This document shows, one piece after another, positions 36,448 to 42,447 of a stretch of 64,000 bases of DNA. The position numbers were made by a program, and so were the translations under genes. This DNA is from Xaviernesmea rhizosphaerae. Lineage in GTDB: Bacteria; Pseudomonadota; Alphaproteobacteria; Rhizobiales; Rhizobiaceae. The DNA lies in assembly GCF_001938945.1 (NCBI RefSeq), contig NZ_MKIO01000039.1:62001-126000 (forward strand), in the 5' to 3' direction. Numbering within the stretch: position 1 is the first letter of the stretch; every line of letters begins with the position of its first letter. The notes under the pieces are model-generated. The model made no database searches and was not told where the DNA came from. It worked only from the letters and a program-made list of their open reading frames with translations.

Positions 36448-36684
36448 GGTCTTCTCCTCAAAAAGCGCATGGCGACCGGTCGGCCTGGTGTCCGCGCTCT
36501 GTCCGTCCGGCATTGACGCCTGCCGCAGGCGGCGGTTCCTTCCCCGGCCCTCCCAGACCGGCGGGCCCGCGCAAAAGCGGTTCCCAGGATCGCGCGACAT
36601 GCTGTAAGGGAAAGAGAGCAGAGCGCAACGCGCAATTTTCTTGAGGGTCAGCGGGTTTTGACCGAAAGCCCGCCGAGGAGTGAC

Positions 36685-37335
36685 ATGACGGACATGGACA
36701 ATCGCTGCCGCCTGGTTCTGGTGCTGCCGGAGCTTGACGATTCCGACCGGCAGGTAGAGCGCCTTGAGGCGGCGCTTTCGGGCGGGGATGTCGCCTCGGT
36801 GATTCTGACGCAGGGCGCGCTGGATGATGCCACGTTTCAGAAGCAGGCCGAGCGCCTGGTGCCGATCGTGCAGCAGGCGGGTGCGGCGGCGATTATCGCT
36901 GGCGACAGCCGGGTGGCTGGCCGCGTCAAGGCGGATGGCCTGCATGTGGCGCAAGGGGCGGAGATGATTGCGGAAGCAGTGGAGAAATTCACGCCGAAGC
37001 TGATCGTCGGCGCGGGTGGCGCGTCCGATCGCCATCAGGCGCTCGAGATCGGCGAGGCCCGCCCGGACTATATGTTCTTCGGCAAGCTCGACGGCGACAT
37101 CAAGCCGGAAGCCCATCCCAAGAACCTGGCGCTGGGCGAATGGTGGGCCTCGATGATCGAAATCCCCTGCATCGTGCTTGCCGGCACGGACCCTGCCTCC
37201 GCGCTCGCCGTTGCCGAGACCGGGGCCGAATTCGTCGCCCTGCGCCAGGCCGTGTTTGCCGCCGAGGCGCCAGGCGCCGTCGTCGCTGCGGTTAATGCGC
37301 TTCTGGACGAAAAAGCGCCACGGTTTGAAGATTAA
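36685..37335 (+). CDS. Thiamine-phosphate-synthase-like protein, catalytic motifs diverged
   Basis: A 216-residue TIM-barrel protein related to ThiE/TenI. KADGLHVAQG (about 82-91) and IVGAGGASDRHQAL match the family's DGVHLGQ and G-(x)-S-x-H regions. The segment that should read QLRxK is ASVILTQGALDD (37-48), and the pyrophosphate loop GPIF(x)TxTK is replaced by FFGKLDGDIKPEAHPKN. Thiamine phosphate synthesis is therefore doubtful. No other thi gene is nearby. GAGGAG precedes ATG 36685. The Sel1 gene starts 10 bases after its stop, so the two are co-transcribed. Confidence 0.8.
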   Translation: MTDMDNRCRLVLVLPELDDSDRQVERLEAALSGGDVASVILTQGALDDATFQKQAERLVPIVQQAGAAAIIAGDSRVAGRVKADGLHVAQGAEMIAEAVEKFTPKLIVGAGGASDRHQALEIGEARPDYMFFGKLDGDIKPEAHPKNLALGEWWASMIEIPCIVLAGTDPASALAVAETGAEFVALRQAVFAAEAPGAVVAAVNALLDEKAPRFED

Positions 37336-37345
37336 TCGGCAGGAC

Positions 37346-38587
37346 ATGATCCCGACCGCACCCTCTTTTCGGCTTCCCGCCCTGCTGGCCTGCCTGCTCA
37401 CGCTTGCAAGCCCGGCCGCCTTGCGGGCGCAGGCGATCGATCTGCCGGGGGTTACGCTTGAGGGACAGAGCTCGCCGCCCGCCGCCGCGCCGGAGGCTGC
37501 CGCAGGCGCGCAGGCAGGCCATGCGGACGAGAGCTTTGCCGGGCGTGTGGAGCAAGGGACTGGCCCGACGGGCAAGCGCGGGCGGATCACCCCGTTCAAC
37601 GGCGCGGCCCTGCCGGCCGAAGATCTCCCCAGGCTCGGCTCCTCCGCCACGCCGCCGCCGGCGCCCGGCGCGATCGCGCCTTCTGGGGGCGTCAACGTGC
37701 TGGACCGCATGGGCGCGTCCCTGCCGGCCCTGCCCAAGGAAAAGCCGTTCAAGGGCAAGCCCGACGAGGCCTATGGCGCCTTCCAGCGCGGCTATTATCT
37801 CACCGCCATGGAACTGGCGCTGCCGCGTGCGCAAAAGGGGGATGCGGCGGCGCAGACGCTTGTGGCGGAAATCTTCGCCAATGGCCTCGGCGTGGCACGC
37901 AATACCAAGAATGCCGCCTTCTGGTATGAACAGGCCGCCAATGCGGGCGATCCCGTGGCCATGTTCAAATTCGCGCTGATGCTGATGGAAGGACGCGATG
38001 TGCCGCGCGACCGCAAGCGCGCCGATGCGCTGATGCGCGATGCGGCCGACATGGGCAATGCATCGGCCCAGTTCAACTATGCCCAGACGCTTGTGGCCGA
38101 TACGCCGGGCGAGAAAGGGCTGAAGGCGGCGCTGCCCTATTATGAAAAGTCCGCCGAGAAGGGCATTGCCGACGCGCAATATGCGCTGGCGCAGATCTAT
38201 ATGAATGTCGAGGGCATCAGCGACGACAAGCGCGCCACCGCGCGCGCCTGGCTGCTGCGCGCGGCGGCCTCCGGCTTCGACACCGCCCAGCTCGATGCCG
38301 GCATCTGGCTGGTTGACGGCATCGGCGGCGACCGCAATCTGGAGCAGGGCTTCCGCTGGATGCGCGAGGCTGCGATCGGCGGCAATGTGATCGCCCAGAA
38401 CCGTCTGGCCCATCTCTACATCAACGCCATCGGCACGCGGCCCGATCCGGTCGAGGCGGGGAAATGGGCGCTTCTCTCTCTGAAGGCCGGCCTCAGCGAT
38501 CCCACGCTTGACGACTTCATGGAAGGCCTGCCCGACGATCAGGTGGCCCAGGCCCGCAAGGCCGCCAGCCTCTTCCGGCCGCAATAA
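37346..38587 (+). CDS. Exported Sel1-repeat (TPR-like) protein
   Basis: A 413-residue secreted protein. Signal peptide PALLACLLTLASPAALRAQA, a Pro/Ala-rich linker to about 130, then about six Sel1-like repeats of 36 residues, such as AAAQTLVAEIFANGLGVARN and ADAQYALAQIYMNVEGISDD. Sel1 proteins act as adaptors in envelope or signalling complexes. AGGA precedes ATG 37346. It follows the ThiE-like gene by 10 bases and lies 234 bases before the IMPase-like gene, in the same direction. Confidence 0.9.
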   Translation: MIPTAPSFRLPALLACLLTLASPAALRAQAIDLPGVTLEGQSSPPAAAPEAAAGAQAGHADESFAGRVEQGTGPTGKRGRITPFNGAALPAEDLPRLGSSATPPPAPGAIAPSGGVNVLDRMGASLPALPKEKPFKGKPDEAYGAFQRGYYLTAMELALPRAQKGDAAAQTLVAEIFANGLGVARNTKNAAFWYEQAANAGDPVAMFKFALMLMEGRDVPRDRKRADALMRDAADMGNASAQFNYAQTLVADTPGEKGLKAALPYYEKSAEKGIADAQYALAQIYMNVEGISDDKRATARAWLLRAAASGFDTAQLDAGIWLVDGIGGDRNLEQGFRWMREAAIGGNVIAQNRLAHLYINAIGTRPDPVEAGKWALLSLKAGLSDPTLDDFMEGLPDDQVAQARKAASLFRPQ

Positions 38588-38821: not shown

Positions 38822-39622
38822 ATGGCGCGTTCAGCTCTTCTCAACGTCATGGTACAGGCTGCCTTCAAGGCTGGGCGCTCGCTGTCGCGCGACTTCGGCG
38901 AGGTGCAGAACCTGCAGGTCTCGATGAAGGGGCCGGGCGATTTCGTCGCGCAGGCGGCCCGCAAGGCCGAGAAGATCCTGCGCGAGGACCTGATGAAGGC
39001 CCGCCCGACCTATGCCTTCCTCGGCGAGGAAGCCGGCGAGATCGAGGGCACCGACGGCTCGCACCGCTGGATCGTCGAGCCGCTCGACGGCGCGACGAAT
39101 TTCCTGCATGGCGTGGCGCAGTTCGCCATTGCGGTCGCGCTGGAGCGTCAGGGCGAGATCGTTGCCTCGCTGGTGTTCAATCCGGCGCTTGACGAGCTGT
39201 TCACCGCTGAGCGCGGCGGCGGCGCCTTCCTCAACGACCGGCGCCTGCGCGTGGCCGCCCGCCGCACCTTGTCCGATTGCGTCATCGCGACGGGCATTCC
39301 CTATCTCGGCCGCAGCAATCATGGCACCTATCTTGTAGAACTGCGTCATGTCATGGGTGAGGTTGCCGGCCTGCGCAGCTTCGGCGCGCCGGCGCTCGAT
39401 CTTGCCCAGGTGGCCGCCGGCCGGTTCGATGGCTTCTGGGAGCGTGGGCTCGATCCGTGGCAGATCGCGGCCGGCATGCTCCTGGTGCGCGAGGCCGGTG
39501 GCTGGGTGTCCGACATTGACGGTGGCAATAAGCTGATCGAGAGCCGCTCGATCATTGCTGGCAACGAATATATCCGCAAGGCCCTGCAGGACGTCGTCCA
39601 TCGTCCGATTCCCGGCAAGTGA
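38822..39622 (+). CDS. Inositol-monophosphatase-fold protein with altered metal site
   Basis: A 266-residue protein of the IMPase/SuhB family. FLGEEAGE (67-72) keeps the first glutamate, but other metal residues differ: VEPLDGATNF (85-94) has Glu86 where the family has Asp and Ala91 for Thr; the usual ADxxAE reads QAARKAE with Ala46 for Asp; and LDPWQIAAG (210-218) has Gln214 in place of the Asp of WDxAAG. Phosphatase activity is therefore uncertain. AAGGA precedes the ATG by 9 bases. It sits between the Sel1 gene and the MotA/OmpA-like pair, same strand, 254 bases before the MotA-like gene. Confidence 0.85.
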   Translation: MARSALLNVMVQAAFKAGRSLSRDFGEVQNLQVSMKGPGDFVAQAARKAEKILREDLMKARPTYAFLGEEAGEIEGTDGSHRWIVEPLDGATNFLHGVAQFAIAVALERQGEIVASLVFNPALDELFTAERGGGAFLNDRRLRVAARRTLSDCVIATGIPYLGRSNHGTYLVELRHVMGEVAGLRSFGAPALDLAQVAAGRFDGFWERGLDPWQIAAGMLLVREAGGWVSDIDGGNKLIESRSIIAGNEYIRKALQDVVHRPIPGK

Positions 39623-39876: not shown

Positions 39877-41070
39877 ATGGCCAGGCTGAGATCGTCGGAA
39901 CGCGGCTACGCGGACGAGCCGGAAGATCATGGGTTGCCGGAGGCCCAGCTGACGAGCCCGATGGTGTTCGTCTGGACCATGGTGATCTTCCTGATCATCG
40001 TCGCCTTTGTCGGCGCCATCCTCTTCCGCCAGGCGCATGCCGCCTTCCTCAGCAATCCCGGCCTTAACGGGCTGATTCTCGGCGTGCTGCTGATCGGCAT
40101 CTTCCTGTCCTTCGGCCATGTGCTTGGCCTTCGCCCCGAAGTGCGCTGGTTCAACGCCTTCCGCGCCGTCGGCAATGCCGAGAAGGTGGGGCGCGAGCCG
40201 GTGCTGCTGGCGCCGATGCGCGCGCTGATCGGCCGGCATTCGCATCACCACGGCATTTCGACCGCCGCGCTGCGCTCGATCCTCGATTCGATCGCCACCC
40301 GGCTGGACGAGACCCGCGACACCTCGCGCTATCTGATTGGCCTGCTCGTCTTTCTCGGCCTGCTCGGCACCTTCTGGGGTCTGCTCGGCACCATCGGCTC
40401 GATCAACACGGTCATCCAGTCGCTCGATGCCGGCACCGGCAGCACGGACGACGTGCTCTCGGCGCTGAAGACCGGCCTTTCGGCGCCGCTGACCGGCATG
40501 GGCACCGCCTTCTCCACCTCGCTCTTCGGTCTGGCCTCCTCGCTGATCCTCGGCTTCCTCGATTTGCAGGCCGGCCGCGCGCAGAGCCGCTTCTATACCG
40601 AGCTTGAAAACTGGCTCTCCTCCGTCACCGATGTCGAGGCCGACCGCGCCGTTGCGGTCGCTGGCGGCGGCAATCTGGAGGAGATGCGCGACGTGGGCGA
40701 ACAGCTCAGCCGCCTGGCGCAGGATTCCGGCCTCAACCAGCGCACGACGGCGGCCATGGCCAATCTCGCCGATGGCATCCAGGGCCTGGTGAAGAACATG
40801 CGCGGCGAGCAGCAGATGCTGCGCGACTGGATCGAGGCGCAGCAGGAAGAATCGCGCGCCATGCGCTCCACCCTTGAAGGGCTGATCAACCGGCTGGCCG
40901 AGCGCGGCAGCGCGCCCGCCGCCCCGCCGCGCATGCCGGCCGCTCCGCCGCCGCAGGTCGCTCCCGTCTCGGCGCCGGCACCCTCTGCCGCCGCGCCGCA
41001 GCCGGCCCCGCCCGTCGTAGCGCCCGCGCGTGCGCGCCGCGAGCCCAAGCGCGAAGAGCGGGGAGAATAA
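39877..41070 (+). CDS. MotA/TolQ/ExbB-family proton-channel protein
   Basis: A 397-residue inner-membrane protein with four hydrophobic segments: about 28-52, 62-85, 150-177 (LIGLLVFLGLLGTFWGLLGTIG, the MotA/ExbB core) and 202-230 (TGMGTAFSTSLFGLASSLILG). A helical region (about 245-335) and a Pro/Ala-rich tail follow. With its MotB-like partner it should form a proton-driven unit spanning the periplasm, like flagellar stators, Tol-Pal or ZorAB. No flagellar, tol or exb genes are near. AGGACAGG precedes the ATG. The partner gene begins 3 bases after its stop. Confidence 0.9.
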   Translation: MARLRSSERGYADEPEDHGLPEAQLTSPMVFVWTMVIFLIIVAFVGAILFRQAHAAFLSNPGLNGLILGVLLIGIFLSFGHVLGLRPEVRWFNAFRAVGNAEKVGREPVLLAPMRALIGRHSHHHGISTAALRSILDSIATRLDETRDTSRYLIGLLVFLGLLGTFWGLLGTIGSINTVIQSLDAGTGSTDDVLSALKTGLSAPLTGMGTAFSTSLFGLASSLILGFLDLQAGRAQSRFYTELENWLSSVTDVEADRAVAVAGGGNLEEMRDVGEQLSRLAQDSGLNQRTTAAMANLADGIQGLVKNMRGEQQMLRDWIEAQQEESRAMRSTLEGLINRLAERGSAPAAPPRMPAAPPPQVAPVSAPAPSAAAPQPAPPVVAPARARREPKREERGE

Positions 41071-41073
41071 GCC

Positions 41074-42105
41074 TTGGCCCTGTCGCGCCGCAGCCGTTCG
41101 CACCGCACGATCGATTACTGGCCGGGCTTCGTGGACGCGCTGTCCACGCTGCTGCTCGCCATCATGTTCCTGCTCTCGGTCTTCGTGCTGGCGCAATTCC
41201 TGCTTAGCCGCGAGATCAGCGGCAAGGATGACGTGCTCAACCGGCTGAACAGCCAGATCAACGAGCTGACCCAGCTTCTGGCGCTCGAAAAGAGCGGCAA
41301 GCAGGACCTGGAAGATTCGCTGGCGAGCCTGCAGGCCTCGCTTTCGGCATCCGAAAGCGAGCGTTCGCGGCTGCAGACCCTGCTTTCCCAGGGCAGCGGC
41401 AGCACCGACACCGCCAATCAGAAGATCGGCGAGCTCAGCGGCGAGCTGGACGCCGAGCGCCAGAACAGCGCCCGGGCGCTCAGCCAGGTGGACCTGCTCA
41501 ATCAGCAGATCGCGGCTCTTCGGGCGCAGATCGCCGCCGTCGAAAGCGCGCTCCAGGCCTCCGAAGCCAAGGATGCCGCCTCCCAGACCAAGATCGCCGA
41601 TCTCGGGCGGCGGCTGAATGTGGCGCTGGCCCAGCGCGTGCAGGAGCTGAACCGCTATCGTTCGGACTTCTTCGGCCGCCTGCGCGAGATCCTGTCGGAT
41701 CGCGAGAATATCCGCATCGTCGGCGACCGTTTCGTGTTCCAGTCCGAAGTGCTGTTCCCCTCCGGCGGCAACGAGCTCAATCCTGCCGGCCAGGAGGAGA
41801 TGAGCAAGCTCGCTGCCGCGCTGATCGATCTCGCCAAGGAAATTCCGCCGGAGATCGACTGGGTCCTGCGCGTCGATGGCCATACGGACTATGTGCCGCT
41901 GTCGGGCAATGGCCGCTATGTCGACAATTGGGAATTGTCGTCCGCACGCGCCACCTCGGTCGTCAAGTTCCTGATCTCCAAGGGCGTTCCCGCCGACCGG
42001 CTGGTCGCGGCCGGCTTCGGCCAGTATCAGCCGATCGCGCCCGGCGACAGCAAGGAAGCACGCGACCAAAACCGGCGCATCGAGCTGAAACTTACGGAGA
42101 AATAA
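41074..42105 (+). CDS. OmpA/MotB-family peptidoglycan-binding protein with coiled coil
   Basis: A 343-residue protein: one transmembrane helix (about 18-45, YWPGFVDALSTLLLAIMFLL, with an Asp placed as the proton-carrying residue of MotB), a long coiled coil (about 50-200, repeated Leu/Gln/Glu heptads) and an OmpA domain (about 210-343; DGHTDYVPL, NWELSSARATSVVKFL, NRRIELKL) that binds peptidoglycan. The start is TTG 41074, 8 bases after GGGAG. Co-translated with the MotA-like gene. A conserved, non-flagellar rhizobial module; the task of the motor is unknown. Confidence 0.9.
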   Translation: MALSRRSRSHRTIDYWPGFVDALSTLLLAIMFLLSVFVLAQFLLSREISGKDDVLNRLNSQINELTQLLALEKSGKQDLEDSLASLQASLSASESERSRLQTLLSQGSGSTDTANQKIGELSGELDAERQNSARALSQVDLLNQQIAALRAQIAAVESALQASEAKDAASQTKIADLGRRLNVALAQRVQELNRYRSDFFGRLREILSDRENIRIVGDRFVFQSEVLFPSGGNELNPAGQEEMSKLAAALIDLAKEIPPEIDWVLRVDGHTDYVPLSGNGRYVDNWELSSARATSVVKFLISKGVPADRLVAAGFGQYQPIAPGDSKEARDQNRRIELKLTEK

Positions 42106-42230: not shown

Positions 42231-42252
42231 CATGATTTGCGACCTTGGCTGG

Positions 42253-42447
42253 CCCCCTCATCCGACCCTTCGGGCCACCTTCTCCCCGCTGGGGAGAAGA
42301 GACGTGCGCCGCCGCCTCGCCCCGCCTGCACCCATAAGAAAATGCGGCTTATGCATTGTTTTCCAGCGGGTTGGATGGAGGCGCCGCGCTATCGGCCGGG
42401 TCTCTTCTCCCCGCCGGGGAGAAGGTGCCGGCAGGCGGATGAGGGGG
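42253..42447. repeat. Composite REP-like inverted element
   Basis: Left arm 42253-42303 begins CCCCCTCATCCG and contains CACCTTCTCCCCGCTGGGG; the right arm 42400-42447 is its inverse copy (CTTCTCCCCGCCGGGGAGAA ... GCGGATGAGGGGG). Each arm holds its own CTCCCC/GGGGAG hairpin. The spacer of about 95 bases carries CATAAG/CTTATG. Such arms are common REP-type sequences in Rhizobiales. No transposase. Confidence 0.85.

Follow-up and report, generated by a model that had tools for sequence, protein, structure and literature searches.

A core gene pair of Alphaproteobacteria encodes a presumed ion-driven envelope motor related to the ZorAB subunits of Zorya

The A and B Genes and Their Products

The DNA analyzed here, a stretch of 64,000 nucleotides (nt) from Xaviernesmea rhizosphaerae (the window), contains two adjacent forward-strand genes that are predicted to encode the two subunits of an envelope motor. 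The first gene (39877..41070, ATG start) encodes A, a protein of 397 amino acids (aa) with four predicted transmembrane (TM) helices and the MotA/ExbB/TolQ channel fold. The second gene (41074..42105, TTG start) encodes B, a protein of 343 aa with one TM helix, a coiled coil, and an OmpA-type peptidoglycan-binding domain. The genes are separated by 3 nt, a spacing consistent with translational coupling. An earlier inspection of the window without database searches (the sequence-only reading) had described these two open reading frames (ORFs) together with co-directional thiE, Sel1, and IMPase neighbors, and the window ORFs and Pfam agree with this description.

At the sequence level A is an outlying member of its superfamily. 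It reaches 21.1 bits (E 2.8e-4) with the Pfam model MotA_ExbB, 1.8 bits short of the cut-off of 22.9, and its S. meliloti counterpart passes the same cut-off with 24.6 bits. A matched no model in the NCBIfam scan. A search of the sequences of solved structures with the A profile returned 47 sequences at E ≤ 1, which were coiled coils or long helices as far as they were named, and no motor protein was among them. Therefore, a fold search was needed. The AlphaFold2 model of A (mean pLDDT 81.9) has long helices at residues 29–48, 61–98, 129–183, and 190–250, and a further helix at 288–343. Alignment of this model to solved structures with VIA-align gave Z scores of 11–12 for ExbB/TolQ, 11.3 for ZorA (8vvn), and up to 9.8 for MotA, which superposes on residues 29–255; the first 27 rows were motor proteins only, although helical bundles generally score high. 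Foldseek also ranked ExbB, TolQ, ZorA, and MotA chains on top, with a best E of 2.9e-3 and none below 0.001. The TM3–TM4 core (residues 152–229; 40330..40563), which by homology would form the face of the ion path, contains eight residues that are identical in all 81 aligned sequences (G164, T165, G168, M208, F212, S215, G218, and G226). Predicted fold and channel motif together place A in the MotA/ExbB/TolQ proton-channel superfamily.

The long helix that follows TM4 (residues 288–343; 40738..40905) is presumably cytoplasmic and resembles the tail of ZorA, but is much shorter. Two of its residues, Q312 and Q322, are kept in 69 and 74 of the 81 sequences, respectively. The end of the protein (residues 344–397; 40906..41067) is rich in Ala and Pro and was modeled with low confidence. 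With 54 residues it is much longer than the alignment median of 11, and only 3 of 80 relatives have at least five Pro residues there. The sequence-only reading had suggested that this tail could dock cytoplasmic effectors; because relatives do not keep it, such docking is unlikely as a general feature, and the idea was dropped.

B is recognized with much higher confidence. It matches the NCBIfam model PRK09039 (NF006544), named "peptidoglycan-binding protein," over its full length (residues 1–343 of 343; 675 bits, cut-off 362), and the Pfam OmpA domain at residues 227–334 (41752..42075; E 2.3e-16), in which G269, H270, D272, N285, and R292 are invariant. At E ≤ 0.001 the only Pfam matches are OmpA, DUF4407, and ABC_tran_CTD. 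The ExbD/TolR family (PF02472) gave no match at this threshold, and at E ≤ 10 it is absent from the best 25 of 52 matches. The model of B shows a single N-terminal helix that continues into a long coiled coil. This helix contains Asp21 (codon at 41134..41136), the helix Asp already singled out in the sequence-only reading, which is invariant in all 80 aligned B sequences, including the window copy. A and B thus share an alignment feature of motors with 5:2 stoichiometry, namely, a TM Asp in B and Thr/Ser residues in TM3–TM4 of A (T165 and S215).

Two sets of loci were used for further comparisons. The first comprises the best 80 loci from named records, which are mostly Rhizobiaceae by title. 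The second is spread over families and comprises 40 loci of Hyphomicrobiales (40 family codes, one each) and 40 loci of other Alphaproteobacteria (nearly all with different family codes), drawn only from genomes with a match to A. The coiled-coil linker of B (about residues 45–208; 41206..41697) turned out to be of constant length in part of this range. Counted from D21 to the GDRF motif at the start of the OmpA part, the distance is the same 196 residues in every one of the 80 loci of the first set and in 33 of the 39 Hyphomicrobiales loci measured in the second (1 of 40 was missed). In the 39 measured of the 40 other alphaproteobacterial loci it ranges from 182 to 756 residues, and only one of these has 196. 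The constant length fits a stalk of set reach. However, in Hyphomicrobiales the linker sequence is itself conserved, with a median identity to the window copy of 56% versus 61% for the OmpA domain, and therefore constant length need not imply a ruler. The linker as a pure ruler was rejected for this reason; the constancy may reflect nothing more than conservation of the coiled coil.

Distribution of the Pair and Its Independence of Flagella

A was found in 57 of 61 relatives and in 193 of 199 genomes of Hyphomicrobiales, including 172 of the 174 of high quality. It extends beyond this order: 159 of 240 alphaproteobacterial genomes, some of them smaller than 1 Mb, have a match, and only 7 of these matches are weaker than E 1e-20. 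In a sample of 200 genomes of the phylum, the A profile matched 66, of which 36 are Alphaproteobacteria and 30 are labeled only as belonging to the same phylum; 4 of the latter matches are of full strength (G523, G581, G594, and G612) and 26 are weak. A and B lie side by side in all 80 loci of the first set and in all 80 loci, from 80 genomes, of the second. Among 50,697 phage records, none carries A. Of 72,556 plasmid records only five do, and all five are non-mobilizable and of chromosome size (3.5–4.6 Mb). One of them (CP090106.1) is a 3.7-Mb record in the plasmid collection titled S. meliloti pSymB; it carries purE, rpmE, and the A–B core locus and thus is probably a mislabeled chromosome. 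A and B are core genes and not part of a defense island.

The host genome has four places that match MotA_ExbB, which are, by profile scores, the A locus, a TolQ-like, an ExbB-like, and a MotA-like locus. The nearest of the other three is the TolQ-like locus at a distance of about 33 kb, in agreement with the earlier statement that the pair lies away from flagellar, tol, and exb genes. The presence of A is not coupled to the presence of a flagellar rotor. Across the 240 alphaproteobacterial genomes, A and a FliG_C match are both present in 93, A alone in 66, FliG alone in 47, and neither in 34 (odds ratio 1.02, p 1.0), and hence 66 of the 159 genomes with A have no FliG_C match. The folds, the domains, and this independence of FliG all speak for the non-flagellar MotA/MotB-type motor pair that the sequence-only reading had proposed.

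Relationship to the Zorya Motors

The sequence-only reading had also drawn a parallel to ZorA and ZorB, the motor subunits of the Zorya defense system, and had noted that zorC, zorD, and zorE are missing. Both points hold, the second for the eight window neighbors scanned. The best matches of the A profile, built from 57 A proteins, beyond the A family are five loci (L210–L214) with A-type proteins of 675–801 aa, all five of which are ZorA3 according to PADLOC. The scanned neighbors in two of them (L211 and L214) are ZorB3 and proteins with DUF3348 and DUF2894, i.e., Zorya type III. The PADLOC labels for the DUF3348 (ZorG) and DUF2894 (ZorF) proteins are reversed relative to the papers. Conversely, the PADLOC models for ZorA1/ZorA3 and ZorB match A and B, the ZorA1 model only with positions 104–254 of 683. 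The models PDLC00597 (ZorA1) and PDLC00651 (ZorB3) match the core pair, and PDLC00597 matches 98 of 101 Hyphomicrobiales genomes; in the four genomes in which the places were compared (G000, G057, G072, and G133), the match was the A gene. As these models alone flag A and B, Zorya could be called too often in Alphaproteobacteria by scans that rely on a single hit.

Several hallmarks of Zorya are not found at this locus. None of the eight window neighbors scanned with PADLOC matched a Zor model, be it zorC with zorD, zorE, or zorF with zorG, and the recurring neighbors are thiE, Sel1, efp, IMPase, and glycolytic genes. One neighbor, an ABC transporter, matches PADLOC mad3/mad8. A lacks the long cytoplasmic tail of ZorA, its tail helix being confined to residues 288–343, and its near-universal presence in Hyphomicrobiales differs from the sporadic distribution of Zorya.

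A tree was calculated from 62 TM3–TM4 segments (126 columns). Seventy sequences had been gathered, eight of which were dropped because a motif pattern missed them (two ZorA3, three ZorA1, the TolQ and MotA of the host genome, and one ExbB); before that, six near-duplicate TolQ rows had been omitted, and no ORF had been obtained for two ZorA1 loci and one MotA locus. TolQ and ExbB were labeled by profile score and length, and ZorA3 and ZorA1 by PADLOC, except L268 and L269, which were labeled by similarity to L211. The A family, ZorA3, ZorA1, and a family of 309–357 aa are split from TolQ/ExbB and MotA with support values of 99/94, with a long-branch warning and an unsettled bootstrap. A further branch, with the same two warnings, has the A family and ZorA3 on one side (89/86). 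The A rows do not form one clade, ZorA3 falls weakly inside them, and a clade of ZorA1 and ZorA3 is not rejected (p-AU 0.47). Because of this non-monophyly, the p-AU value, the unsettled bootstrap, and the long branches, no branching other than the separation from TolQ/ExbB and MotA is relied on here. The family of 309–357 aa comprises channel proteins from five loci of one family code (f208; L215–L218 and L222), three of which have an adjoining weak match to the B profile.

The Gene Neighborhood

Upstream of A lie three further genes on the same strand, i.e., thiE (36658..37335), encoding a protein similar to thiamine-phosphate synthase, a gene for a Sel1-repeat protein with a signal-like N-terminus as judged by eye (37346..38587), and an IMPase-family gene (38822..39622). 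The identity of thiE is based on Pfam, NCBIfam, and locus comparison. The sequence-only reading had named conservation of this gene order as a check, and 75 of the 80 loci in the first set indeed show the order thiE-Sel1-IMPase-A-B.

The family-spread set gives a more differentiated picture. Upstream genes were counted where 5 kb or more of upstream sequence was available, i.e., in 35 Hyphomicrobiales loci and 38 others. On the same strand, IMPase precedes A in 30/35 and 34/38 of them, respectively, and within 400 bp, or with an OmpA-domain gene in between, in 27/35 and 32/38. For efp the counts are 23/35 and 31/38, and for thiE 21/35 and 25/38; five Hyphomicrobiales loci and four others have neither IMPase nor efp. 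A longer arrangement that is common reads tkt-gap-pgk-(fba)-thiE-(Sel1)-efp-IMPase-(OmpA protein)-A-B; Pfam matches in one or two loci bear out the assignments of tkt, gap, pgk, efp, and fba (a class I aldolase). In the examined stretch of the window, efp is absent from the locus. The OmpA protein in this setting is Pro-rich, has a signal-like start as judged by eye, and carries a C-terminal OmpA domain. It precedes A in 29 of the 38 loci outside Hyphomicrobiales and in none of the 35 within, and the domain was confirmed by Pfam in all four neighbors scanned (loci among L148–L187, e.g., L149:6882-7838 and L169:6799-7956). This protein is a candidate third subunit outside Hyphomicrobiales.

The IMPase gene had been read as encoding a pseudo-enzyme belonging to the system, and only the first half of this claim stands. 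In the window copy, E86 and Q214 occupy metal-ligand positions at which Asp is found in 155 and 159 of 166 sequences (the own copy included), and because of these two replacements the protein is probably inactive. As the ligands are intact in most relatives, the system does not include a pseudo-enzyme, and the IMPase gene is better regarded as a conserved neighbor. Deviations at the first ligand position are seen in a few further loci as well (e.g., L007, L048, L050, and L081).

Downstream of B, the intergenic stretch at 42235-42320 resembles, as judged by eye, a palindromic repeat element that is common between rhizobial genes. A TctC gene lies between B and an ABC transporter in the window, and in S. 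meliloti the ABC transporter directly follows B.

The Counterparts in S. meliloti

In S. meliloti 4H41 (L043) and Ak57 (L282, the record CP090106.1 mentioned above), the order is YdcH, ArsR, (TauE), thiE, Sel1, IMPase, A, B, with the TauE-like gene being an ORF in the former and an unlisted tag in the latter. Several published positions link this order to SMc tags. SMc03999 is described as a DUF465 protein (PMC8343143; identifiers of this kind denote papers in PubMed Central, PMC). A PhaR site reported ahead of SMc03998 at chromosome positions 2996060-2996080 (PMC12542648) was located at L043:1914-1934 with 2 mismatches, before the ArsR gene. A fragment inside SMc03993 (2991422-2991677), which a screen for DNA bound by ChvI had yielded (PMC3687685), calculates to about L043:6317-6572, inside A, if there is no large indel between the strains. 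By these positions A appears to map to SMc03993. The four genes in between fill the tags SMc03997 to SMc03994, and therefore the Sel1 gene is SMc03995, i.e., rgsF.

RgsF is a published essential protein of polar growth. It is periplasmic, and its depletion leads to short, rounded cells. A knock-out of SMc03995 is reported not to grow, and the gene is also essential by transposon sequencing (PMC5929573). The Sel1 protein of the window is thus the positional counterpart of RgsF, a conserved neighbor and a candidate partner of the motor. Among the open-licence PMC main texts that name the tags SMc03991 to SMc03994, there was no Rgs paper.

Proposed Function and Alternatives

That A and B form an ion-driven motor is very probable. 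The observed basis is the predicted fold, the conserved residues of the ion path, the constant pairing, the core distribution, the neighborhood, and the common branch with ZorA. For ZorAB of types I and II, 5:2 complexes have been described, and ion flow, peptidoglycan binding, and the tail of ZorA are reported to matter for defense (PMC11890865). By homology A and B would assemble as A5B2, with the B dimer fixed to peptidoglycan by its OmpA domains at the end of the coiled-coil stalk. The flow of ions past D21 of B within a ring of Thr/Ser residues of A would then turn or lever the A ring against the wall-anchored B.

What this motor may do is much less certain. On balance we slightly favor, at little better than an even call, a housekeeping motor of the inner membrane that acts mechanically on the envelope of growing and dividing cells, in a role comparable to that of TolQR. 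A periplasmic neighbor may assist: in Hyphomicrobiales this could be RgsF, and in most of the other Alphaproteobacteria sampled it could be the OmpA-domain protein, which is Pro-rich and apparently secreted. The preference is based on the RgsF neighborhood and on one overexpression study. In Komagataeibacter hansenii, a member of a genus without flagellum, overexpression of motA/motB is described to result in longer cells, chains with septum-like regions, and wider spreading, and a similar effect of tolQ/tolR overexpression in Escherichia coli is cited in the same paper (PMC6570709). This was the only paper on the function of the family found in the main texts of the open-licence PMC literature; the passages of PMC12204202 that were consulted contain nothing on it.

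Several observations weigh against this role. No phenotype of a loss of A or B was found in the open-licence PMC literature, the K. hansenii effect was obtained by overexpression only, and the shape of E. coli was described as unaffected (PMC6570709). Of the 240 genomes of the class, 81 have no match to A. Proximity need not imply a shared function, given that the neighbors thiE, efp, and IMPase do not belong to the envelope genes, and a Sel1 gene was recognized nearby in only 22/35 Hyphomicrobiales loci and 3/38 others. The tag SMc03994, which maps to the IMPase gene, has been called ribosomal protein S21 (PMC9611204), in conflict with this mapping. Three Rhizobiaceae loci without a match to the A profile retain neighbors, namely, thiE and Sel1 (L278, genome G006), thiE, Sel1, efp, and IMPase (L279, G026), and a 137-aa Sel1 fragment, efp, and IMPase (L281, G007). 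The RgsF-like genes therefore need no motor there. The fourth motor-less genome (G045) is represented by a contig of 3.3 kb (L280), on which Sel1 and efp are present but which stops short of the A site. A joint loss of RgsF and the motor was not found in these four genomes. A Sel1 query matched 61 of 61 relatives, many of the matches being other Sel1 proteins. In L279, a TPR/glycosyltransferase-41 gene follows IMPase. In addition, MreB matches near E 1e-150 occur in genomes with A (e.g., G261, G273, and G274), which argues that the motor is not specific to polar growth. A contrast between genomes with and without MreB was tried as an indicator of polar growth and rejected: the model MreB_Mbl (PF06723) matches 240 of 240 genomes, the host genome only with E 3.7e-14, and the contrast is not clean because related actin-fold proteins presumably match as well.

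Other functions of the motor have to be weighed against this one. As an energizer of the Ton/Tol type, A and B might power a process of the outer membrane, such as lipid, polysaccharide, or nutrient traffic or invagination, via an as yet unrecognized transducer and without acting on the wall itself. The fold of A is indeed nearest to ExbB/TolQ (Z 11–12), and the Pro-rich OmpA-domain protein beside A in 29/38 loci outside Hyphomicrobiales could span the periplasm like TonB- or Pal-type parts. However, B has an OmpA domain and no PF02472 match at E ≤ 0.001, A falls outside TolQ/ExbB in the tree (99/94, with the long-branch warning), and no TonB- or TolA-like gene was noticed among the identified neighbor clusters, for which no systematic search was made. 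We consider such an energizer rather unlikely. A sensor of the envelope state, in which B would feel wall tension and A would signal inwards by ion flux and its tail helix, would be in line with the ZorA-like helix and the conservation of Q312 and Q322. ChvI has a role in envelope stress. The recovery of a fragment of SMc03993 in the ChvI screen might point in the same direction, but this fragment is intragenic (PMC3687685). Moreover, no gene for a cytoplasmic effector was recognized among the recurring neighbors, and the end of the A tail is not conserved, so that a sensor appears improbable.

An anti-phage motor of the Zorya kind that acts alone or without partners would agree with the position of type III ZorA as nearest outside relative by profile, with the PADLOC matches of both subunits, and with the protection of E. 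coli by Zorya III (PMC8565338). It is difficult to reconcile with the presence of A in 172/174 high-quality Hyphomicrobiales genomes, the housekeeping genes that recur as neighbors, the lack of Zor partners among the eight scanned neighbors, and the short tail of A, and ZorAB has been described as insufficient for defense (PMC8565338); this function is quite improbable. An auxiliary stator for flagella or gliding is extremely improbable. The four-TM layout of A, the OmpA domain that B shares with MotB, and the broadened colony spreading of K. hansenii upon overexpression (PMC6570709) would fit a stator, but A is independent of FliG across the 240 genomes, the host genome has a separate MotA-like locus, and A lies outside MotA in the tree.

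Comparison With Known Systems

The sequence-only reading had presented the pair as a candidate for a new, undescribed system. This must be qualified, as B carries a label in NCBIfam and both proteins are named in the S. meliloti Ak57 record, in which A, in the neighbor position, is annotated as "MotA/TolQ/ExbB proton channel family protein." A function has not been assigned in the literature found. The pair is thus known by database label, and is new as a recognized core envelope motor of the Zor branch: it is a conserved, presumed ion-driven motor of most sampled Alphaproteobacteria that has names but, as far as found, no assigned job. If it acts on the wall, the coupling of ion gradients to growth becomes testable in this class.

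The family PRK09039, which B matches over its full length, is among the closest known entries, and Ak57 contains the pair under these database names, but this is an annotation label, and the model states neither a mechanism nor a partner. The pair of K. hansenii is likewise close by description, with proteins of 348 and 321 aa, four and one TM helices, and an OmpA-like domain, and its MotB is reported to match an OmpA/MotB protein of Rhizobium gallicum with 98% coverage and 46% identity (PMC6570709). Orthology to A and B would follow from size, topology, and the matches listed in that paper.

Flagellar MotAB/PomAB has the same subunit types, i.e., a four-TM A subunit and a B subunit with a TM Asp and an OmpA domain. 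In contrast, A and B occur in 66 genomes without a FliG match, and in the same genome as a separate MotA-like locus. TolQR and ExbBD share the fold of A and presumably the channel principle, but their B subunit is of another family, whereas B has an OmpA domain, the TolQ-like locus lies about 33 kb away, and A is outside TolQ/ExbB in the tree. In a comparative study of MotAB and its relatives, the relevant passages describe non-flagellar B subunits as lacking OmpA-type domains, and Zorya was omitted from its trees (PMC12505986). The A–B family does not fit this generalization as worded there.

Zorya type III, which consists of ZorA with DUF802, ZorB, and the DUF3348 and DUF2894 proteins, resembles A and B in the type of subunit pair and the TM3–TM4 motifs, and provides the nearest outside profile matches. 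The differences are that ZorA3 has 675–801 aa, that ZorB has 208–225 aa in four of the five loci (the ORF in L212 has 444 aa), and that A and B are core genes and not sporadic. It is conceivable, though doubtful, that an ancient housekeeping motor of the wall gave rise to the Zorya motors and survives in its core form as A–B. A–B would then be a proton-motive-force-driven A5B2 complex with a periplasmic stalk of set length, would work with RgsF or the OmpA-domain neighbor to drive wall insertion at growth zones, and would join Tol and Ton as a third general motor of the envelope. In the pair, the defense motors of Zorya have a housekeeping relative, from within which or alongside which they arose.

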